From Candidatus Cloacimonadota bacterium (lineage in GTDB: Bacteria > Cloacimonadota > Cloacimonadia > Cloacimonadales > Cloacimonadaceae): a stretch of DNA of 64,000 nucleotides. Location of the stretch: the NCBI GenBank assembly GCA_029781115.1, contig JAKOXG010000011.1, positions 1 to 64,000 on the forward strand, read 5' to 3'. Under the pieces are notes generated by a model. That model was not told the origin of the DNA and ran no database searches. It was given only the letters and a program-made list of their open reading frames with translations. Positions 8,734 through 57,618 of the stretch are shown here, in pieces (positions within the stretch are counted from its first letter, which is position 1; each line of letters opens with the position of its first letter). A program made the translations under genes and the position numbers.

Positions 8734-8762
8734 TTGACTGATCCGTGTCTTTGATTTATACT
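8734..8762 (+). promoter_or_regulatory. Promoter of the serpin gene
   Basis: TTGACT (8734-8739), a 17-base spacer and TATACT (8757-8762) make a near-consensus sigma-70 promoter. The start would fall near 8769, giving a leader of about 27 bases before the ATG at 8796. Confidence 0.7.
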
Positions 8763-8795
8763 ATCTTAAAACAAATCATAAGGAGAAATACTTCT

Positions 8796-10160
8796 ATGCG
8801 CAAGACAATCATCCCCTTGGTCCTGTTCGGTCTTATTGCCTTTGGCTGTGGTGTGCTGAACTTCGATCAAACTGAAACTACACCTGATGCTCCCAGGCCT
8901 TTGCAACCCCAGACGCCTGCCGAAGAAACCACGGAGCAGGTAGTACCGGCTGAGGTCACTACCCCTCAAGAACCCGAGATTCAGTCCACCCCAGTCGATG
9001 TGACCCAATTTGCCGCTTCCAACAACGCTTTTGCCTTTGATATCTACAATCAGGCAGCTGCCAATAATCCAGATAACAACCTGTTCTTCTCACCTTACAG
9101 CATTTACACTGCTTTGGGTATGACCTATGCGGGCGCCAAAAGAGATACCGAAGAGCAGATGCGAAATGCTCTCTACTTTGCTGAGGATGCTGTGAGCCAA
9201 CACGCCGCCTTCATGGATATGTCCCGCAAACTCAACAAGATAGGCCAGCGTGACAAGGCGCAATTGAGCGTGGCAAATGGCGTCTTCCAGGCTAAGCTGC
9301 ATGAAAAGGCGCTGCTGCCCGAGTATCAGAATATCCTCAAGAAATACTATGCCAGCGAGATGTATTCGCTCGATTTTGCCAAGGCTAAAGAGAGTGCGGA
9401 CTATATCAACGACTGGGTCATGGAACGCACCAACAAACGCATCAAAAACATGGTGAGTGAACAGCATATCCAAAGCAGCAACAACGGCATGCTGCTGGTG
9501 AATGCCATCTTCTTCAAAGCCAACTGGCTCAAACAGTTTAACCCCAAATACACCAATGTGATGAGCTTCTATCCTGTTCCTGAAAAGGAATTTCCGGTAA
9601 ACATGATGTATGCCAGGGATGATTTTTCCTACACCGAAGTGGCAGATATGCAGGTGATCGAGCTTCCCTACGACGAAGAAGAGCTGTCTATGCTGGTGTT
9701 TTTGCCCATTAAGAGCAATGAGATACCCGAGTTTAACAACGATATCGTATTTGAAGCCATGAAACTCCTCAGGAAGCAAGATGTGAGGTTGTGGTTGCCC
9801 AGTTTCACCCTGGAACTGGAGCTGGGTGAAATCGTCGAAATGCTTGAAAACATGGGTATGACAGACGCTTTCGACGTGAGGCTTGCTGACTTCACCGGCA
9901 TTCGTGATCCCAAGGCTGGAGCTGATTTGTTTATCAAAGACATCCTCCACAAAGCCTTTATCGAGGTCAATGAAGAAGGCACAGAAGCTGCTGCTGCTAC
10001 GGCAGTTGTCATGGCTACCAAATCCACCGCCATGCCGGATGAAAAGATGCCCATCATCTTCAGAGCAGATCACCCCTTTACCTACATGATCGTGCACAGA
10101 CCCAGCCAAACCATCCTCTTTATGGGAAAGCTGAGCGACCCACCAAGAGCTGAGAAATAA
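8796..10160 (+). CDS. Lipoprotein serpin (serine protease inhibitor)
   Basis: The start at 8796 follows AAGGAG (8780-8785). It gives a signal peptide ending in a lipobox (LIAFGC, Cys18), so the 454-residue protein should be a lipoprotein with a Pro/Glu/Thr-rich linker to about residue 65. The rest is a full serpin fold, including the N-terminal NNLFFSPYSI motif. The hinge of the reactive-centre loop is ideal for an inhibitory serpin (EEGTEAAAATAVVM), and by the usual hinge-to-P1 spacing P1 is Lys and P1' Ser, predicting action on trypsin-like proteases. The C-terminal DHPFTYMIVH and LFMGKL are canonical. It has its own promoter and terminator. An upstream in-frame extension exists but would hide the signal peptide. 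Confidence 0.93.
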   Translation: MRKTIIPLVLFGLIAFGCGVLNFDQTETTPDAPRPLQPQTPAEETTEQVVPAEVTTPQEPEIQSTPVDVTQFAASNNAFAFDIYNQAAANNPDNNLFFSPYSIYTALGMTYAGAKRDTEEQMRNALYFAEDAVSQHAAFMDMSRKLNKIGQRDKAQLSVANGVFQAKLHEKALLPEYQNILKKYYASEMYSLDFAKAKESADYINDWVMERTNKRIKNMVSEQHIQSSNNGMLLVNAIFFKANWLKQFNPKYTNVMSFYPVPEKEFPVNMMYARDDFSYTEVADMQVIELPYDEEELSMLVFLPIKSNEIPEFNNDIVFEAMKLLRKQDVRLWLPSFTLELELGEIVEMLENMGMTDAFDVRLADFTGIRDPKAGADLFIKDILHKAFIEVNEEGTEAAAATAVVMATKSTAMPDEKMPIIFRADHPFTYMIVHRPSQTILFMGKLSDPPRAEK

Positions 10161-25918: not shown

Positions 25919-26351
25919 CAGGCTCATAATCATCTGTAGGCGGTGAGCCTTTGAGCCGTGTTGCAGCAGCTGACAACTGTCCTGTAAGCCAGCAGCAGCC
26001 TTGCCGCCGCATATATGTGGAGCCTGCCATACACAACTTACAGGTGGATTCGGCGCCCCACTTACCTGCTTGCTGACATGCCCCTCTATAATATACACTG
26101 ACGATCTTACTTGGAGGCCAAAAAACAAAGAAAATAATCTTGTAACCGCCTGCAAACAATAGGCATACAAAACCGTCAAATGTTCACCCTGTTTGGCGGA
26201 TAGTAAAATACCGGCAAGTGCCGCATCAATCCCACATTGTGCAAATATCATCCGCCGAAACCAGCGCCACAACTGTATTCCTTGGCCAACGATCAGGTTA
26301 CAGATCTTCCATCCACCCCCAATTGAACTTGAGCCTTTTTTATCTGCACAC
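25919..26351. other. Convergent spacer with repeat R1 copy B
   Basis: Between the gpmA terminator and the terminator of the minus-strand pseudogene I see no gene. The 3' two-fifths is R1 copy B. A 157-residue minus-strand frame (25880-26353) runs through the repeat and shares its R1-encoded segment with the other copies, but has no ribosome-binding site or family match. Confidence 0.55.
26081..26234 (-). repeat. Dispersed repeat R1, copy B
   Basis: On the minus strand this reads from GGGATTGATGCGG, through TGGTATTTTACTATCCGCCAAACAGGG and CATTTGACGGTTTTGTATGC, to GGCGGTTACAAGATTATTTT, ending in the core GATCGTCAGTGTATATTATAG AGGGG. It is the most consensus-like of the four R1 copies in the window. 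Confidence 0.85.
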
Positions 26352-31713: not shown

Positions 31714-31768
31714 GTGGCGGGAGGTTGCTGAGCCAAGGGCTTAATTTGCTTGACCCAAACCATGGATT

Positions 31769-32020
31769 GCGCAAATATTGACTTTTGACCTCTACAGACC
31801 ACCTGCCGCAAGGTGTTTTTACTACCCCTTGGCTCCGCCTCCTAACTGCCTGCTTTCCTACTCGTTACTTACTCGAGGAGCAGGAGCGCAGCAGGGGCGG
31901 AGTTGGCAAGCCGCATGGAATCGGCATTTGAGAGGTGTCTGTAACAGGGGTTATATGTGACTATATATTATCCTGAGATCAATGGTTGATTTTGGGACTG
32001 CTTTTTCCGGTGTCTGGGTT
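31769..32020 (+). repeat. Dispersed repeat R2, copy b
   Basis: Partner of 19261-19512. Here the long hairpin is clearer: GGCTCCGCCTCCTAACTGCC and TGCTTTCCTACTCG pair imperfectly with CGAGGAGCAGGA, GCAGCAGG and GGCGGAGTT around a TTACTTA loop. CACCT/AGGTG forms a smaller upstream hairpin. It occupies the convergent spacer 31714-32173, which holds no gene. Two further hairpins follow (TGGGAG/CTCCCA at 32021-32036 and CCCACT/AGTGGG at 32033-32049), possibly acting as terminator for the minus-strand operon ending at 32174. Confidence 0.85.
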
Positions 32021-32173
32021 TGGGAGCGAACTCCCACTAAAACAGTGGGTGTTTGATCCCCTCTACTCACTCAAAAAGCATTTTTACCTTTCGCCACCCC
32101 TTTTTTGGATATCACACACTATATTACTCTAAACACGCAAAAGGCTGATCCATGAGACCGGAGGACATTGGCA

Positions 32174-33508
32174 TCAAAAATAAATATCTTGTTCCCGTAC
32201 TCTTGCTAACTGAATTTCATTGATGAGCTTCATAGCTGATCTGAGTTCGCTAACCGACACATCGCGGTCTGGCATAGGAAATATATCATCATTAACATCG
32301 TATTTTTGTTGTGACATCCAGCATAGAATCATTTCTTCAAATTGAATATCACTCATTGCTGCAAAGTCATCACTATTCCTCAGTAATCTAAACAATCCTG
32401 TGCCCGGAAATGGAGCCGCATAAAAAGCACGCGGGATAAATTTCGAATCACTGATATACTTTAATGTCGTAGACAAAGTTTGATATGTTTCACCGGGCAA
32501 ACCGAGTATAAATGTTCCAATAACAGCTAATCCCTCATCATACGCAATATTGACACACCTTGTAGCATCATCGAGAGAAATACCTTTTGCGTAATTGTCG
32601 AGAATACCCTGATCGGTAGATTCGATCCCAAGAAGTAAGGTTTTGCACCCACTTGCTTTCAATGCTTTAGCTTGACTCTTTGAAAAAGGTGTTGCCCTGA
32701 TTAGTGCACTCCACTCAAAATCCATATCCATCATCAATCCGCATACATCCAAGACTCTTTTCTCGCTTGTATTAAACGTCGGATCGTTTATGTAAACATG
32801 CTTGAATCCTTGTTTTTTGATATTCTGCAGATCAGCACGGATTTTATCGTTTGAGGCAACTCTGAAATGCTTACCAAAGGGATTGGCACAGAATTTACAG
32901 CGATTTGGACAGCCTCTTTGGGTAGAATATGCAGCAGATTCAAAAAAACTATTTTCAAAGGTTCGCCGCCATAATGAGTAATCCGGACAGGGTACGTTCT
33001 CCATGTCCGGAATTCCCAAGTTGTTATAGTTTTTTAATACTATTTGTTCATCTAACAGGTCTTTTGTTGCCACCGGAAGATGAAGTGTATCCTGATTGGT
33101 AAGCAGGCATTTGGTCAACTCTGGCAAACTGTTCTCACAATCACCAATAAGACAATGAGTAACGCCTGTTTGAGACAGTACTGTCTTCCAAGAGATGGTC
33201 GATAGACAACCACCCAACACTATCGGGATGTTCTTTTTTCTGATCTCCAAAGACAACTGCTTAACATACTGATATCCATCCGGCGATCCAGCAATATGCA
33301 GGATATCGTCACTGCCAATACTGTCAACTATTGAATCAAGTGAACGGGGCTCAGCCCTTAAATCTATGCACTCCACTTCTATGTCTGGAAAGCTTTGCTT
33401 TAAAACAGTCGCAACTATAGCAGACCCCTCAAATGGAGCCATTAGAGTTTTATCCCAAGAAAGGGAATCTGCATAAATTGAGGGAGGAACAATTATATGA
33501 AATGTCAT
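32174..33508 (-). CDS. Radical SAM enzyme with B12-binding-like domain
   Basis: The 444-residue protein has an N-terminal Rossmann domain (about 1-145) of B12-binding type; the position of the usual GG-x-H loop reads LGGCLST, and no DxHxxG motif is visible. The radical SAM core carries C200, C204 and C207 (QRGCPNRCKFC), then VYINDPTFN, LLLGIESTDQG and FILGLPGET, all standard for this group. The reaction (methylation, cyclisation or ring chemistry on a small molecule) is not predictable. It is the last gene of a six-gene operon. Its start overlaps the cyclase gene's stop (ATGA), so production is coupled to that regulator-like protein. The operon is AT-richer than its surroundings. Confidence 0.87.
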   Translation of the reverse strand: MTFHIIVPPSIYADSLSWDKTLMAPFEGSAIVATVLKQSFPDIEVECIDLRAEPRSLDSIVDSIGSDDILHIAGSPDGYQYVKQLSLEIRKKNIPIVLGGCLSTISWKTVLSQTGVTHCLIGDCENSLPELTKCLLTNQDTLHLPVATKDLLDEQIVLKNYNNLGIPDMENVPCPDYSLWRRTFENSFFESAAYSTQRGCPNRCKFCANPFGKHFRVASNDKIRADLQNIKKQGFKHVYINDPTFNTSEKRVLDVCGLMMDMDFEWSALIRATPFSKSQAKALKASGCKTLLLGIESTDQGILDNYAKGISLDDATRCVNIAYDEGLAVIGTFILGLPGETYQTLSTTLKYISDSKFIPRAFYAAPFPGTGLFRLLRNSDDFAAMSDIQFEEMILCWMSQQKYDVNDDIFPMPDRDVSVSELRSAMKLINEIQLARVREQDIYF

Positions 33509-35130
33509 TGCTTTTTACCAACATCTTCCTTAGCCAACTCCAACTCATAAACTGATATATCTTTGGGGACTTGGTTTTGAAGTAACTTTGAAGCGATGGT
33601 CTCTAAAGAAGTCTGCTCACTTGGTTTGTCTGTTAGAGCAACGATATCAAAATGCCCCATTGAAAACCAAACATGCTTGCATTCATGGTACCTCCGAATC
33701 TCTTGGGCAAGATTCAATGCTACCGTTTGACTATCAACTTTAATCAGAAAAGCGCAACACTCACCAGGTAGTGTCATTTTACATTGTATGGTGGCTTCAT
33801 AAACATACTTATAAACACCGTTTTTATCAATACTCTTCTTCTCAAGTGGGACAAATGGCTCAATTCTATACCTTTTATTTCCACTACTGGCATCCGAAGC
33901 CACGTTATCAATACTAAAAACGGGATAAGTGGTGGTGTTTTTAATGTCTTGACTAGAATTATTATTAGGATCAAGCAAGATATCCATCCGAGCTAAATAA
34001 TCATCGTAGCTTTCAGATAGTGCGAAAGCCAGTAACCTTTCTTGTGATGTGTCGTTGTTCTGAGTAACTATCTCGAATTCTTCAAGTTGATCACTATAAT
34101 GCAAAGAATGAGCTTGGGTTATTTTGTAAATTGCTACTGTTTGCAGGGATGGAAAAGCCGCACGAAAATCGCTGTAAAAACCTGGTGCCACCTGCTTCCG
34201 TTTTTTAAATTCTATGAATATGCAACTTCCGAAATGGTAGTTTGATACAATGTGAGAAAAGCTGGGATTAGCACCTCCTTTTTTTGAATGAACGACCTGA
34301 AACACTTCAAATTCTTCAGCAATACCCTTAGCTTTTATCTTCAAACTACTTCCCCACCCCCCTACTACAATAAACGACCCATCACACGTTGCCTCATTTG
34401 GACATGATAAACTACAAAATTCCGTATCGCTTTTTCTCCTACATCCTGAAAAAGATTTATTATTTTCTTCGTTGAACTTCAACAAGTCATCTGCTATTTC
34501 TTTTGTTACAAGGATTTGATTCCCACTTGCAAACGATTCAACTCTCGCACATTTATTTACTTCAAACCCCCAAACATCGTCGTCACTGAGAGTAACGCTA
34601 GGATCATCTTGGACAGAGGATTCGGGCCTCGATTTATCGGACGATGCACTTAAAATATCCTTCATGGATGAGCCACTAAGCAGCTTGGAACCCCTTGAAA
34701 CAGCAATTTTTACCGTTACTTCGTGGTGTTCCAATAACCCCATGATCTTATACACTAACCGGATAAAGTCAACACTATGTTTTGGTTCAACTTTAGAATC
34801 AAAGTTTCTAACGAGCAGCAGACCGTCTCCCATGGTCTTGGGAATAATGTACGGTGGCTTGCCTTTTCCTTCTTTGTCAATTTTTGTGTTAAGTTTATAG
34901 ATATTCTCCTTTATCTCCTTTATGAAGCTAACAATTGTTGTGTAGTATTCTACAGCGTTTTGCTCAGATTGTTGTGTAGATCCCTGAACATCGATAAAGG
35001 CAAATAATGAAGAATCTTCCTTCCCAGTAGCTTTTGAAATCAGGTCTTTTATTACTTCTCTTGTTCTCAATAATTGTTCTGTTGCTTGTTGCACAGCTTC
35101 TGCATCAGTAAGTGATTCAAATTCATTCAT
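33505..35130 (-). CDS. Class III nucleotide cyclase with Cys-cluster insertion and RAM-like C-terminus
   Basis: The start at 35130 (GGAGG nine bases upstream) gives 541 residues. Residues 40-285 form a class III nucleotide cyclase homology domain. Metal-binding Asp47 lies in FIDVQGST and Asp102 in PKTMGDG; substrate Lys98 is beside it. Transition-state Asn192 and Arg196 are in WGFEVNKCAR, and the domain ends SLKIKAKGIAEEFEVFQV. The catalytic set looks complete and of adenylate type. Between strands sits an unusual four-Cys segment (C230, C239, C243, C249; CX8CX3CX5C) able to bind a metal or Fe-S cluster. Residues about 445-535 (CCAFLIKVDSQTVALNLAQE, FSMGHFDIVALTD) resemble the Lrp/AsnC ligand-binding RAM domain. 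It may be an amino-acid- or redox-sensing cyclase; that is inference. Confidence 0.75.
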   Translation of the reverse strand: MNEFESLTDAEAVQQATEQLLRTREVIKDLISKATGKEDSSLFAFIDVQGSTQQSEQNAVEYYTTIVSFIKEIKENIYKLNTKIDKEGKGKPPYIIPKTMGDGLLLVRNFDSKVEPKHSVDFIRLVYKIMGLLEHHEVTVKIAVSRGSKLLSGSSMKDILSASSDKSRPESSVQDDPSVTLSDDDVWGFEVNKCARVESFASGNQILVTKEIADDLLKFNEENNKSFSGCRRKSDTEFCSLSCPNEATCDGSFIVVGGWGSSLKIKAKGIAEEFEVFQVVHSKKGGANPSFSHIVSNYHFGSCIFIEFKKRKQVAPGFYSDFRAAFPSLQTVAIYKITQAHSLHYSDQLEEFEIVTQNNDTSQERLLAFALSESYDDYLARMDILLDPNNNSSQDIKNTTTYPVFSIDNVASDASSGNKRYRIEPFVPLEKKSIDKNGVYKYVYEATIQCKMTLPGECCAFLIKVDSQTVALNLAQEIRRYHECKHVWFSMGHFDIVALTDKPSEQTSLETIASKLLQNQVPKDISVYELELAKEDVGKKQ

Positions 35131-35151
35131 AATCTTACACCTCCACATCCT

Positions 35152-35874
35152 CTAATGACATTGAAATAGTAAATACTCAGTATTAGTCTGAGTCAGTTGT
35201 GCTTTCTCTAACGGGAGCATCAATCCCTTGTCTGACGGATAATAAAGAGCAAGCGAAAAGAACCTTTTCAGCAACTGCTCATAAAAATCGTAACTGTAAT
35301 GGAAATAACTCACATCAACACTCCTTCTATTGTCCAACCTAAAAACCCATTTTGATAGTGTGCCGGAATCAGAGATCCCTGCTTGAGAGTCATCCGGTTT
35401 GTAATATGGATTCAGTATCGATATTAATGCCGAAGCACCAGGTTTCAATACCCGCGCTATTTCACTTATTGCCATTTCCACATTTTCAATAAGCATGAGG
35501 ACCATACTGCAAACCACTATATCGAAGCTATCATCAGGGAAAGGGATACGCTCAACCCGACCTGTAACAGCTGGAAATACTTTGTTTGCTTCTTCAACTG
35601 CTTCGGGAATGACATCAATGCCAATAACATTTGCACCCAAGGACTTGATAAAACGGCCTATCTGTCCAAAGCCACAACCGATATCCAAAACACTTTTACC
35701 TTCAAGATCACATGAACGAAGATAATTGAAAAAAGCTGGCAGGTACAAGTCCGCCTTCGATTCGTATAGGTTTTCGTTAAATGCTTGAAGCAAGCATACC
35801 CACTTCTCCTTTTCCACAATCGCCAGTGGGATATCGAGATGGGACAAATTGTTAATCGTGATCAAGTGTTCCAT
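35152..35874 (-). CDS. Class I SAM-dependent methyltransferase
   Basis: The ATG at 35874 has GGAGG seven bases upstream and gives 240 residues. It is a Methyltransf_11-type enzyme: VLDIGCGFGQIG (motif I), VIGIDVIPEA, RIPFPDDSFDIVVCSMVL and ARVLKPGASALISI. The target could be the small molecule handled by the neighbouring importer or radical SAM enzyme, but the sequence does not show it. The start lies inside the end of the ABC ATPase gene (23-base overlap), and the cyclase gene begins 21 bases downstream of its stop, so it is an integral member of the operon. Confidence 0.87.
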   Translation of the reverse strand: MEHLITINNLSHLDIPLAIVEKEKWVCLLQAFNENLYESKADLYLPAFFNYLRSCDLEGKSVLDIGCGFGQIGRFIKSLGANVIGIDVIPEAVEEANKVFPAVTGRVERIPFPDDSFDIVVCSMVLMLIENVEMAISEIARVLKPGASALISILNPYYKPDDSQAGISDSGTLSKWVFRLDNRRSVDVSYFHYSYDFYEQLLKRFFSLALYYPSDKGLMLPLEKAQLTQTNTEYLLFQCH

Positions 35875-36571
35875 TAACCATCCTCCATGTAACATCTACT
35901 CTTGATTGCATTACTTCACTCAATTCCGCATGACTCACAATAATGACTGTACAATCACTACTGACAGTGCTGATAAGTGTGTTGGCCAACTCGACGAATT
36001 CAAGTGATAACTGACTTGTGGGTTCGTCTAACAAAATCAGGTCAGGATTGCTGCATATGACACAAGCTAACTGGAGCATTTGTTTCCAACCACCTGAAAG
36101 GCGCATTGCTTCGTCATCCAACCTTTTCCAAAGTGGTAGCATGTATTCGTGTTTTGCACAAAACCTCATGCAATCCTCATGGGCTTGTTTTCGGGATTTA
36201 TGCCTGTTTTTGCCGTTGCGTAAATATCTAAAAACCAGGTGATCCCTTACTGTCATAAAAGGCACGATTGCATCATCAGGGTTCTGATACACCATTGCGA
36301 GATTGACATACTTGGGAATCAAGTGCGCTTTGACAACTTGATTGTCAACAATCGCATGGCCTTGTACATGAGGGATTAACCCAGCAATAACATGTAAAAG
36401 GGTGCTTTTCCCTGATCCATTGTGACCACTTATACGTACGAAGTCGCCTTTACATACGCTTACGGAAACATTATCCAATGCTATTATATCACTACTCTCA
36501 AGCTGCGTTGTCGAATATTTAACCGTAATGTTTGATAAGCTAAAGAGTGTTGGTCTATCAGAACGCATCAT
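35852..36571 (-). CDS. ABC transporter ATP-binding protein (TrpXYZ-type importer)
   Basis: This is the nucleotide-binding subunit of the importer. Walker A is GHNGSGKST, the Q-loop is YQNPDDAIVPF, the signature is LSGGWKQM (non-canonical Trp and Lys in place of LSGGQRQ), Walker B is LILLDEPTS and the switch His is in IVSHAE. With the ATG at 36571 (or 36568) it is about 239 residues and overlaps the permease stop by 14 bases. A longer upstream reading to 36634 would lie mainly inside the permease gene. It pairs with the permease and substrate-binding protein directly upstream. Confidence 0.9.
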   Translation of the reverse strand: MMRSDRPTLFSLSNITVKYSTTQLESSDIIALDNVSVSVCKGDFVRISGHNGSGKSTLLHVIAGLIPHVQGHAIVDNQVVKAHLIPKYVNLAMVYQNPDDAIVPFMTVRDHLVFRYLRNGKNRHKSRKQAHEDCMRFCAKHEYMLPLWKRLDDEAMRLSGGWKQMLQLACVICSNPDLILLDEPTSQLSLEFVELANTLISTVSSDCTVIIVSHAELSEVMQSRVDVTWRMVNGTLDHD

Positions 36572-37511
36572 TATTCTCTCTTGCAGCTGTATTGTTTCCG
36601 AAGTTCGCACTGGACAGTATGAGTACCAAAGCAATTATCAGTCGAATATCGCCGCTTAAATAAACATTGATAACACTGCTTAAAAACCATATGCATGCTT
36701 GAATGACAATTGACATAAACAATCCGCCAACAAGTGGAACGCAAAGCTTGGCTTTGAGAAGGTGGCCATTTCTCTTCCCCCATGCTGTTAAACCGAGTAT
36801 TCTTTCCCCTACCAATAAACTCGCCAAAGCATACAGAAATGTGCCAAAAGTGTTTATGTCGACATAGTTATCCGTTGCTGCTCTCATAGATCCAGCTACG
36901 GCTGAGATTGCACCCGAAATACCAAGCCCAATTACAAAGAACAGAAGCGGATTGGATCCTGTCTCAGTGATGATATCCTTCCTGTAACCAGTAATCCTGC
37001 AGTAAATCCCCGTTTTGCTCCTTAGGAACAGGTAAACCATAAACAGGGCTACTATCATAATGGCAACATTGATTACCAGTATGACCAGATTCTGATTAAT
37101 AGACGTATTTGAACTGATAAACTGTCTGATTCTGTTGTAATCGTGGCTTTGAAGGTATAGTCCATTAGTTGATGTGTGTCCATTCAACCTGAATAGAACC
37201 GAATACATTGAAAATGAAACCACCAGGCCAGACAGCAGCTTACTGAGTTTCAAAAACCTCAATCCATGTAACACTGCCATCATCGCTCCGACGCTGAAGC
37301 CGAACAATAGCGACAAAATGATGCTTACTAACACACTGCCCTGCACAATTCCCATTGAGGTCACCAAGTAGAGCATTACCATTCCGGCAGCATACGAAGA
37401 ATCAAGAGCTAAATCGGGAAAGTTCAAGAAACGAAAGCTAATGAGAAAAGACAGTGCCAGCAGGGTGTAAAACGGGAAATCTAACAGGCAATTAATTACA
37501 AATGACAGCAT
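36558..37511 (-). CDS. ABC transporter permease (COG4120-type)
   Basis: The 317-residue protein is very hydrophobic, with about eight to nine TM helices. It fits the branched-chain-type permease family, COG4120 subgroup: FLNFPDLALDSSYAAGMVM at the N-terminus, FGFSVGAMMAVLHGLRFLKLSKLLSGLVVSFS, and a conserved-looking GISGAISAVAGS loop. In described TrpXYZ-type systems (tryptophan or tyrosine importers of Firmicutes) a single permease gene sits between the binding protein and ATPase, as here. The gene lies 53 bases downstream of the binding protein gene and overlaps the ATPase. Confidence 0.87.
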   Translation of the reverse strand: MLSFVINCLLDFPFYTLLALSFLISFRFLNFPDLALDSSYAAGMVMLYLVTSMGIVQGSVLVSIILSLLFGFSVGAMMAVLHGLRFLKLSKLLSGLVVSFSMYSVLFRLNGHTSTNGLYLQSHDYNRIRQFISSNTSINQNLVILVINVAIMIVALFMVYLFLRSKTGIYCRITGYRKDIITETGSNPLLFFVIGLGISGAISAVAGSMRAATDNYVDINTFGTFLYALASLLVGERILGLTAWGKRNGHLLKAKLCVPLVGGLFMSIVIQACIWFLSSVINVYLSGDIRLIIALVLILSSANFGNNTAARENNDAF

Positions 37512-37564
37512 ATCATCATTCTCTGGTCAGGGAATCACCGCTGAGATGGATTTGGATTCTACCA

Positions 37565-38557
37565 TCAATCTGCGGAAACGTGCACGGATTTGTCTATAAT
37601 CGTCTTTGGAATGTTTAGTTTCAACCTATCAACTGATTTCATGTTAAGATATGTGACATACTCATCAAAGTTCACTACAGACAATTCATTCACCGGAGTC
37701 CCCGATATAATACGTTTCACATATTCAGCAGTTCGTCTTCCCATACCCCGATAATCGGGAGCTACACAGCCCACAACACCTCTTTCGACCGAAATCATAT
37801 CAGTGCAAAATACCGGTTTATTGTGCTCCAATGCAATTTGAACTATTAGATCAGCCGCTCCTGAAGCCTGTGAATCGGGCCCGAAAAACAGGCAATCAAC
37901 TTGTTTTATAACCGGGACAATAGCAGCACGTAGATCACTTTGACTCCCAATAGGTATCTTCTTTAGTTGTAATCCAGTACCTTTTACTTCTTCCGCCATC
38001 ATTCCATAAGTATTCTTCGCACTCCCTTCACCATCGTTGACGATGTAACCAATGGCAGCATTATTACCCAAAACTGATTCGATCAGTTTTAAGTTTTCTC
38101 GCACTGGAACAAGATCAATGAACCCGGTCACATTGGGAAGCGGCGTCGTTTCCGTTAACCCAATTTCAGAAGGGGTTGATACAAAGGCAAACACCAGGGG
38201 CTTCTGTCCCTTATTATCAGAAACAGCAACCTGGGTAGCAGGTGTAGACAGAGTAACAAGAACATCATAATCACCTGTTGCCATCTCTCTTGATGACTTC
38301 CTAAGCAGCTCCTGCTGAAAGTTGGCATTAAAAACCCTTGTTCCAATAGCAGGGTCAGTTGATGCTTCCAGTGTCTCTTGTAACTCTTCCGATATCATGT
38401 CGAGAAGTGGGAAATTACCCATTGTTAAAATGGCGACAGTCTTTTTATCTTTGCCGTCGGTTTCTGATTTCCTGCCCAATGAATAAAAGAGCAACAAACC
38501 AGCAATAATAATCAATGCGATCACAATGACTATTAACATTGTCTTCTTGGTTTTCAT
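37565..38557 (-). CDS. ABC transporter substrate-binding protein (COG2984-type), membrane anchored
   Basis: The 330-residue protein starts with a membrane segment (TMLIVIVIALIIIAGLLLFY) and no lipobox Cys, so it is likely N-terminally anchored in the inner membrane or cleaved, unlike typical lipoprotein homologues. The rest is a type I periplasmic binding fold of the ABC_sub_bind family: VAILTMGNFPLLDMI, LVTLSTPATQVAV, VTGFIDLVPVRENLKLI, IGYIVNDGEGSA, LFFGPDSQA and PDYRGMGRRTAEYV. Relatives with known ligands bind tryptophan or tyrosine, but many bind unknown molecules. AGGAGA precedes the ATG. It is the first gene of the operon. Confidence 0.9.
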   Translation of the reverse strand: MKTKKTMLIVIVIALIIIAGLLLFYSLGRKSETDGKDKKTVAILTMGNFPLLDMISEELQETLEASTDPAIGTRVFNANFQQELLRKSSREMATGDYDVLVTLSTPATQVAVSDNKGQKPLVFAFVSTPSEIGLTETTPLPNVTGFIDLVPVRENLKLIESVLGNNAAIGYIVNDGEGSAKNTYGMMAEEVKGTGLQLKKIPIGSQSDLRAAIVPVIKQVDCLFFGPDSQASGAADLIVQIALEHNKPVFCTDMISVERGVVGCVAPDYRGMGRRTAEYVKRIISGTPVNELSVVNFDEYVTYLNMKSVDRLKLNIPKTIIDKSVHVSAD

Positions 38558-38596
38558 TCTAATCTCCTATTGTATCTGATATATTCATACCGCACC

Positions 38597-38624
38597 AAAA
38601 TATTGACAGGTGGGATTGTGTCAA
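38597..38624 (-). promoter_or_regulatory. Candidate promoter of the ABC/methyltransferase/cyclase/radical SAM operon
   Basis: On the minus strand TTGACA (complement of 38619-38624) is 16 bases from TATTTT (38597-38602), upstream of the binding protein start at 38557. Confidence 0.5.
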
Positions 38625-39200
38625 GCAATTTTCAATTATCACTGATATCAACCCAGTGAAGACAACTAAGGAAGGTGTTAATTGTAACATTGTGTGTGGG
38701 TAAAGCACAATTCTTTCTGGTTAAAGTTCTATATAGGGTGAATGGAAGTTCTGTAACTCAACCATTGGATAGGGGACGCATTCGCTACGCTGGTTTCGGG
38801 GATTCATGTTTACACGATATAGGATTGATACGGTTTTGACCTGTATTTTACTATCCACCAAACAGGGTTAATATTTGACCGTTTTGTATGTCTATTATTT
38901 GCTGGCAGTTACGAGAATATTTTATTGCCTTTTGGGCATCCAGGTGAGATCGTCAGTGTATATTATAGAGGGAGGTTTTCGAAGAAAGAGAGGAAGAGCA
39001 GGCTGCGCTTTGTTCAAGGATTCATGTGATATTCAGGTAAAGCGAGAGCGTGTACGGAGAAGGAATTCCATGGGTGAGAGGACAGCGAAACTAACCTGTC
39101 TTTAGAGGAATCATAAATTATCAATTGACATAAACAGCCCTTTTGATTCTATGGCAAAAAATATCTATTTGCGTGTACGCAAGAGTCTTAAGGAGATTCA
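38625..39200. other. Divergent spacer holding repeat R1 copy C
   Basis: No gene is supported between the ABC operon promoter and gcvPA. It holds R1 copy C. A fragment at 38771-38808 (GGACGCATTCGCTACGCTGGTTTCGGGG) resembles 60834-60858 near the C10 protease end. Before gcvPA, TTGACATAAA (39125 onward) may be a -35 element with a poor -10. AAGGAG at 39190-39195 sets the gcvPA start. Confidence 0.5.
38821..38973 (+). repeat. Dispersed repeat R1, copy C
   Basis: Full-length copy starting AGGATTGATACGG, through TATTTTACTATCCACCAAACAGGG, the centre GGTTAATATTTGACC, AGTTACGAGAATATTTT, to the core GATCGTCAGTGTATATTATAG and GGAGG. It aligns end to end with copy B. Confidence 0.85.
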
Positions 39201-55790: not shown

Positions 55791-55837
55791 CATGCAGCGC
55801 AGCCGCTCACAACTCACAACTGCCAGCTCGCTGGCCC

Positions 55838-55990
55838 TCTCCTCTATAATATACACTGACGATGTTGCCTCGAGGCCAAAACCCCGGAAAAATAATCTCG
55901 TAAACGCCTGACAAGGAAAGCTATACAAAAAGGGTAAATATTTACCCACTTTTGGCGAAATAGAAATACCAGAAGAACCGCATCAATCCT
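55838..55990 (-). repeat. Dispersed repeat R1, copy D
   Basis: On the minus strand this runs from AGGATTGATGCGG to the core CATCGTCAGTGTATATTATAG AGG. Its centre is a perfect 16-base palindrome GGGTAAATATTTACCC, and GGCGTTTACGAGATTATTTTT follows. It lies in the convergent spacer between mfd and the minus-strand secreted protein (55754-56292), which holds repeats only. Confidence 0.83.
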
Positions 55991-56292: not shown

Positions 56293-57618
56293 TCACCTCA
56301 CCAGTATCACCTTCCGCGTGGATGAATGCCCCCTGGAACGCAATTTGCACAGATAGACCCCGGCAACCGCCTGTTGACCGGAAGCTGTCTTACCATCCCA
56401 ACTGACCTCATGCTCACCAACCGGCAGCAATTCACCCTCCATCAAAGTCCGAATCAATTGCCCCTTGATATTATAGATCGACATGGTGATGGGACCATCG
56501 TCAATCTGATTGAACTTAATCTTGATACCGCCCTTGAATGGATTTGGATAGCAGGTGAGATCTAACTTGGGATCAAAGGGCACCACCGGATCATCGTTAT
56601 CAACTGGAGGACCAACGTACATACGATAGATACATAGATTGTGGGCAATATAAATATATTCACCCCAATAACAAATACCGTAAAGCTGACCTGATTGATC
56701 GGGCATATGATTTGGTTGAACAATCCACTGCCAACTAACACCATTATTAAGCGAACGAACAATGCCAGGAAAGATTTGATCATTATTATTCATTAAACCC
56801 ATAATGGCGTAAATATTATTATTTTGTCCACTTAAATAGTGACTTGTTAAACATCCTGACGATACCCCACCTGCTACCTGGCTCTGATCTGAATTAAGCC
56901 AATTAATGCCAAGATCGTCAGAATAAATAAAACCGGAGAATGTTAATGATATTAATCTTTTATTACTAACTATCACTGCTGTGGGATAAAAATCGGACAT
57001 TTCATAAAATTGCCAATTTAGACCATTAGTGCTAACTAATGCGCCATGTGGGAAGCCTGTTCCAATCACCATTAAACTTGAAGAAAAATCAGATGCCCCG
57101 GGGAAACCTCTGGTTAGTTCATAAACTAAACTCCAATTTTGACCACCATCTAGGGTTCGATAAACCCTGAACCCATCAAAACCAAACAGTGGATAAAAAA
57201 CAAGATAACCTTCTTGTTCACTCACAAATTGAATATTCCGGACTAAACATTGAACAGATTGTTGTTCTATTTGTTCAAACTTAGTCCAATTTTGGCCACC
57301 ATCACCAGTTTTATACAAAACTGGTTGCATAATATGGTTACCAATAAAGCCCCCACAATAACCGATAGATGAAGAAATCATCCAAACAGTCTTGAGGTGT
57401 AAAGAATCACAATCAGCAACCATAATATTTTGAAAATCTACTCCATTAACAGATTTAACAAAATATTTGTAGCCGACGCCATAAATCATACCGGCTGACG
57501 CTCTCAATATTTGTAACTGTTCAACTGCAGAAGTATATTGCAACTCCCAGTTGCCATTATTAGCAAATGAAAACTGATATGTGATCAACAAGATCACAAG
57601 GATTAGTAACTTCTTCAT
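56293..57618 (-). CDS. Secreted beta-propeller-like (Ycf48/BNR) protein with sorting domain
   Basis: The 441-residue protein has a signal peptide (KKLLILVILLITYQFSFA). A repetitive beta region of about 25-345 contains Asp-box-like turns (KTGDGGQNWTKF, RTLDGGQNWSLV, LNNGVSWQW) typical of BNR/Ycf48-like propellers. The last ~85 residues are the sorting/FlgD-like tail (LTCYPNPFKGGIKIKF, IYNIKGQLIRTL, SWDGKTASGQQAVAGVYL, STRKVILVR). The propeller part is strikingly AT-rich compared with the tail and with neighbouring genes, suggesting acquisition of the propeller from elsewhere. The gene is bracketed by R3 direct repeats. The substrate or role is unknown. Confidence 0.83.
   Translation of the reverse strand: MKKLLILVILLITYQFSFANNGNWELQYTSAVEQLQILRASAGMIYGVGYKYFVKSVNGVDFQNIMVADCDSLHLKTVWMISSSIGYCGGFIGNHIMQPVLYKTGDGGQNWTKFEQIEQQSVQCLVRNIQFVSEQEGYLVFYPLFGFDGFRVYRTLDGGQNWSLVYELTRGFPGASDFSSSLMVIGTGFPHGALVSTNGLNWQFYEMSDFYPTAVIVSNKRLISLTFSGFIYSDDLGINWLNSDQSQVAGGVSSGCLTSHYLSGQNNNIYAIMGLMNNNDQIFPGIVRSLNNGVSWQWIVQPNHMPDQSGQLYGICYWGEYIYIAHNLCIYRMYVGPPVDNDDPVVPFDPKLDLTCYPNPFKGGIKIKFNQIDDGPITMSIYNIKGQLIRTLMEGELLPVGEHEVSWDGKTASGQQAVAGVYLCKLRSRGHSSTRKVILVR

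Follow-up and report, generated by a model that had tools for sequence, protein, structure and literature searches.

The closest described systems to the locus analysed here are the TrpXYZ and CD0873-type ABC importers. Three solved relatives of its binding protein, VC_1101 (3LKV), CD0873 (6HNI) and SP1069 (3LFT), contain phenylalanine, tyrosine and tryptophan (PMC6816091). In these binding proteins, the choice of side chain is set at two positions, Glu-263/Ala and Tyr-279/Gln (PMC6816091). In S. suis, trpXYZ has a T-box leader (PMC9382623). The three-gene order and the families of these importers (PF04392, PF02653 and PF00005) match those of an importer in the stretch of 64,000 nucleotides that we analysed (the window), which comes from a Candidatus Cloacimonadota bacterium. 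However, the window binding protein shares 25-28% identity with the described proteins, one pocket Asp is changed to Thr, and the window operon carries three additional downstream genes. Also, unlike S. suis trpXYZ, the operon has no T-box in its leader, where a search with Rfam found no riboswitch or other known structured RNA either. We tentatively propose that the operon is a horizontally acquired, single-transcript cassette for the uptake of, and the response to, an aromatic-amino-acid-like compound.

Six minus-strand ORFs, all within 32174-38557, are tightly packed and were read as one compact operon (Table 1). The gene order is binding protein, permease, ATPase, methyltransferase, class III cyclase and B12-type radical SAM enzyme. 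Shine-Dalgarno positions place the likely starts of the ATPase (36571), the methyltransferase (35874) and the cyclase (35130) later than the starts of their ORFs; a correctly spaced GGAGG precedes the methyltransferase and cyclase starts, and AAGAGAGA sits upstream of the ATPase start. With these revised starts, the permease gene overlaps the ATPase gene by 14 nt, the ATPase gene overlaps the methyltransferase gene by 23 nt, and 21 nt separate the methyltransferase and cyclase genes. The binding protein and permease genes are 53 nt apart, and the cyclase and radical SAM genes share a 4-nt ATGA overlap. The ORFs, starts and Shine-Dalgarno sites thus agree with an earlier note on this DNA, which had described six overlapping or closely spaced genes on one strand. 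The note had also placed them behind one candidate promoter. A sigma-70-type sequence is indeed present, but such sites are at least as common in shuffled sequence (15 observed in the region vs 19 expected), so that this class of site is not above chance.

Table 1. Features of the operon and of its surroundings in the window.
Feature	Position	Strand	Remarks
Variable slot	31735..39101		Without counterpart between conserved G033 flanks; homology up to 31734 and again from 39102
Left flanking dispersed repeat R2	31740..31945		At least 40 copies in genome, 77-91% identity
Radical SAM enzyme, B12-binding type	32174..33508	-	444 aa; CPNRCKFC motif; PF04055, 74 bits
Class III nucleotidyl cyclase with C-terminal alpha/beta region	33505..35130	-	541 aa; PF00211; start most likely 35130
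Class I SAM-dependent methyltransferase (Methyltransf_11)	35152..35874	-	Pfam, 81 bits; start most likely 35874
ABC ATPase	35852..36571	-	PF00005 (ABC_tran), 90 bits; ATG 36571 likelier start than TTG 36634
ABC permease	36558..37511	-	317 aa; PF02653 (BPD_transp_2), 61 bits
Substrate-binding protein	37565..38557	-	330 aa; PF04392 (ABC_sub_bind), 118 bits; N-terminal hydrophobic anchor
Candidate sigma-70-type promoter	38597..38624	-	TTGACA-16-TATTTT; 10/12 matches; 40 bp before first ATG
Right flanking dispersed repeat R1	38724..38980		At least 31 matches in genome

The adjacent PF04392, PF02653 and PF00005 genes, each over its Pfam cut-off, place the importer in the ABC_sub_bind-type superfamily. 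The earlier designation as a TrpXYZ-type importer is therefore correct at the superfamily level, but not at the level of the TrpX equivalog, for which the binding protein scored 157.5 bits against an NCBIfam cut-off of 390. None of the six operon proteins reached the NCBIfam equivalog level. The PDB relatives 3LKV, 6HNI and 3LFT were matched at 1e-18 to 1e-23. When the binding protein was aligned to these solved relatives, an Asp was aligned with the tyrosine-binding Glu-263 and a Tyr with Tyr-279; like CD0873, it would thus have a Tyr as the size gate and an acidic residue for the ring hydroxyl. The indole-contacting Gln-284 of SP1069 is aligned with a Tyr here, as in the Phe and Tyr binders, and this speaks against tryptophan as the ligand. 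Overall, the pocket positions resemble those of the tyrosine binder CD0873 more than those of the tryptophan binder. These alignments suggest that the imported compound is aromatic-amino-acid-like, and that it is more probably a phenolic than an indole compound. Solved members of the family have Tyr, Phe and Trp as ligands, and this favours, by analogy, the cassette that we propose. In a conserved T/S-D-P stretch, however, the three solved relatives have an Asp and the window binding protein has a Thr. Because of this change in the pocket, a modified amino acid or a compound of another kind may be the ligand. It also counts against the proposed cassette, because it makes even amino-acid binding putative.

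The block had been described as AT-richer than both flanks, and a check of GC content and codon usage confirmed this. The GC content of the operon genes is 38-42%, compared with ~47-56% for nearly all other window genes; per kb, it is 0.39-0.42 across the block and 0.50-0.54 alongside. The codon scores of the six genes (-0.17 to -0.23) lie about 4 SD from those of the other 35 window genes (mean +0.14, SD 0.09). Elsewhere in the window, a gene for a T9SS-tailed protein (56293-57618, minus strand, GC 0.393) has codon usage as foreign as that of the operon and lies near another R1 copy. The window also contains a full-length gene for a serpin, a protease inhibitor, at 8745-10160 on the plus strand (353 bits to PF00079); the host has T9SS-type secreted proteins.

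Comparison with G033, the genome of a sibling species in the same genus, showed that the operon occupies a variable slot. The flanking DNA on the gcvPA side is 89.5% identical, and in both genomes the slot has a beta-helix T9SS gene and gcvPA as its neighbours. In G033, the slot contains a 1009-aa ORF that matches phage tail tape-measure families (L028:3684-6713, G033:C17). The slot is variable, and different foreign DNA has been received there in two sibling species; this intergenic site has the look of a hot spot for such DNA. What is unique to the island (~31946-38723) is just the operon with its leader and tail. No tRNA was found in the window, no integrase in the block and no direct repeats at the island ends, where the end repeats belong to two different dispersed families. 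A contaminating assembly join is unlikely because the block lies within a 274-kb contig. With its foreign composition, its absence from the close relatives searched and its variable syntenic slot, the block has the properties of a horizontally acquired island. Thus, horizontal gain of the operon is well supported, and its foreign origin implies that a donor exists.

The earlier note had also suggested horizontal gain, from the AT-richness of the block and its position between repeats. The gain itself is borne out by synteny with G033; the repeats are another matter. R2 is an intergenic family of ~205 bp with at least 40 scored copies and 81 candidates in this species, and only short, weaker pieces of it occur in G033. 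Candidates for its nature are an RNA, a MITE-like element or a terminator-linked element. R1 has copies at 38724-38980, 26082-26330 and 55836-55990 in the window and at ~28 other sites in the genome, most of which have no more than the final ~130 bp in common. As both families occur in many intergenic regions across the genome, they are weak evidence for gain, and we set the repeats aside as transfer agents.

The earlier note knew of no described system with this combination of genes, and in the open-access literature we found no description of an importer combined with a cyclase and SAM enzymes. Of the 125 phylum genomes searched, only the host genome encodes the cyclase, which also has no relatives among plasmids or phages. 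Viral contigs gave no match to the cyclase, radical SAM enzyme, permease or binding protein. In phyla beyond its own, searching was by pattern only and is hence weak: degenerate patterns for the cyclase motifs matched 109 stretches in 84,980 genomes, none of them a relative, and this is a weak negative because a near-exact match over 9-10 residues is needed. Relatives of the permease, 26-34% identical, occur in five other genomes of the phylum and relatives of the binding protein in 10 other genomes, and the relatives of the radical SAM enzyme are generic, with a best identity of 30%. Neither a cyclase relative nor the full six-gene set was present at the related importer loci that were read out. 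In the same phylum, a fused permease/PF04392 locus in G060 and tandem binding-protein loci in G084, G085 and G070 share the importer superfamily with the window; however, no relative of the cyclase or methyltransferase lies beside the loci examined, and the window importer is only 20-30% identical to them. The G060 locus (L033:5185-8910, G060:C369) is a single ORF of 1241 aa in which an ABC permease and three tandem PF04392 domains are fused in the same order, with genes for a STAS-domain protein and a radical SAM protein next to it. As far as searched, and weakly for most of the tree, the six-gene neighbourhood is not conserved outside this genome.

For the cassette that we propose, the finding of the six genes in one genome alone is a point against, so that their co-selection would have to be assumed. 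It also bears on a simpler alternative. The operon could be an importer operon with passengers, in which the importer is nutritional and the last three genes were co-transferred or perform housekeeping-like tasks of their own, outside any common pathway. The searches made did not show the set to be conserved, close packing is usual in bacterial operons, and the relatives of the radical SAM enzyme and methyltransferase are generic, all of which agrees with passengers. However, the genes overlap, have their own ribosome-binding sites and are uniform in composition, and this suggests that they moved as a whole unit. We regard passengers as possible, but doubtful. In favour of the cassette, the predicted starts would couple the genes translationally, and the genes share foreign GC content and codon usage. 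Further points for it are the other foreign gene at this site in G033, the lack of a cyclase relative among the 125 phylum genomes, the catalytic residues of the cyclase and the resident cyclases and cNMP-binding proteins.

The chemistry of the two SAM-using enzymes is relevant to a second alternative. The radical SAM enzyme belongs to the radical SAM superfamily, as its match to PF04055 is over the cut-off and its CPNRCKFC motif is a canonical CX3CX2C. It shares this motif and an N-terminal Rossmann-like region with the B12-binding radical SAM enzymes of the HpnJ, PhpK, BchE and AprD4 group, but it falls under all family cut-offs, and its B12-binding domain (21.3 bits) is under the Pfam cut-off of 32.1. 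It is clearly similar to such enzymes over its full length, and hence likely to belong to the cobalamin-dependent subgroup. Neither it nor the methyltransferase matched a characterised subfamily in NCBIfam, which counts against the proposed cassette. It is conceivable, though unlikely, that the operon is a small biosynthetic cluster, in which the SAM enzymes build or decorate a small molecule by B12 radical SAM chemistry of the phosphonate, arsenic or lipid type, the ABC transporter moves a precursor and the cyclase regulates. The top NCBIfam models of the radical SAM enzyme (HpnJ, PhpK and lipid B12 rSAM, 99-117 bits) point that way, since HpnJ, PhpK and AprD4 are biosynthetic B12-type enzymes, and AprD4 is its nearest PDB sequence. 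Nevertheless, all of the model matches are far under the family cut-offs, the block has no backbone-forming enzyme or precursor peptide gene, and the transporter, which has a binding protein, is an uptake system.

The cyclase scored 23.5 bits over the whole sequence and 25.8 bits for the domain against PF00211 (Guanylate_cyc), which has a cut-off of 21.9. Its motifs FIDVQGST (D53), PKTMGDG (K104, D108) and DDVWGFEVNKCARVE (D191, N198, R202; residue numbers refer to the 547-aa ORF) align with those of the native class III cyclases of the genus and of Ma1120. From general knowledge of class III enzymes, we take these residues to be the two metal-binding Asp, the base-selecting Lys/Asp and the transition-state Asn/Arg. 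The protein is thus a class III cyclase, over the PF00211 cut-off and with all three pairs at the expected motifs. These residues make cyclase activity plausible, and ATP would be a first guess for the substrate. In contrast to other class III nucleotidyl cyclases, it is very divergent and has its own C-terminal region and a stretch of four cysteines (C236, C245, C249 and C255). The remainder of the protein gave no Pfam match even at an E value of 10.

The earlier note had assigned a RAM-like domain to this cyclase. AlphaFold2, run without relatives, gave a pLDDT of 37 for the whole cyclase and 53 for the last 102 residues, and the secondary structure alone was used. In this low-confidence model, the strands and helices at 465-537 are predicted to follow a beta-alpha-beta-beta-alpha-beta order, which is ferredoxin-like; a low-confidence model also gives beta-beta-alpha-beta-beta-alpha, and for the last 102 residues Foldseek gave no significant match in the PDB. 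With HMMER, the C-terminal region scored 9.6 bits against a ten-sequence Lrp/AsnC RAM profile, compared with 5.8 for the best of 200 shuffles, whereas with hhalign its RAM score falls within the shuffle range. The profile was built from plasmid and E. coli Lrp sequences, because PF01037, the Lrp/AsnC RAM domain, was found in none of 41 genomes of the family, compared with 11 of 14 control genomes. Thus, the cyclase motifs are intact, but the RAM match is not significant by profile; a RAM domain at the C-terminus is suggestive, a lead to be followed.

The earlier note had advised looking for cAMP-binding effectors in the same genome, and we found two candidates for such a role. One is a histidine kinase that carries a cNMP-binding domain at its N-terminus and lacks an HTH (L059:1886-2989, G000:C7), present in all six genomes of the genus; the other is a second, small cNMP-binding protein. 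Class III cyclase domains occur at four other places in the genome, which are common to the genus, and the histidine kinase is a candidate receptor for these resident cyclases. Because the genome holds cNMP-binding proteins, the acquired cyclase would meet existing receptors. CRP-like sites were not above chance; this and the non-significant sensor-domain match weigh against the proposed cassette. A defence-type, Pycsar-like cassette, with the cyclase producing an alarm nucleotide on phage infection, could be suspected because the cyclase is class III-like and its variable slot is occupied by phage DNA in a sibling species, but it is very improbable, as no PADLOC model matched the cyclase, the six genes include no cNMP-activated effector as Pycsar has, and the importer and SAM enzymes fit poorly.

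Returning to the uptake-and-response cassette, we propose the following model. The binding protein, permease and ATPase would import an aromatic-amino-acid-like compound. In the presence of this compound or its product, the cytosolic cyclase would make a cyclic nucleotide, and the C-terminal half of the cyclase probably forms a ferredoxin-like module that senses the ligand. The two SAM-using enzymes may modify the compound or its product. The cyclic nucleotide could then reach receptors already present in the host, for example the histidine kinase that binds cNMP. We infer the first half of each step from family membership; that the steps are coupled is suggested by the operon. The earlier note had read the block in a similar way, as uptake, sensing and modification. 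The amino-acid-type importer family, the cyclase motifs and the CX3CX2C motif are consistent with that, but the RAM domain invoked for sensing is not significant.

A bolder form of this model, which we think rather unlikely, is that the operon represents a mobile importer-coupled signalling cassette of an undescribed kind. An importer that supplies a dedicated sensor cyclase with an aromatic-like compound would then be joined to the host cNMP network and to SAM processing by one transferable transcript. Each part of the operon is a divergent member of a known family, and the searches made did not turn up this combination anywhere else.

If the importer, cyclase and SAM enzymes cooperate, the organism would have gained, in one step, the uptake of a compound together with a dedicated second-messenger response to that compound through its resident cNMP receptors. 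The gene order also leads directly to testable predictions about a class III cyclase that is divergent and has a regulatory half of an undescribed type.
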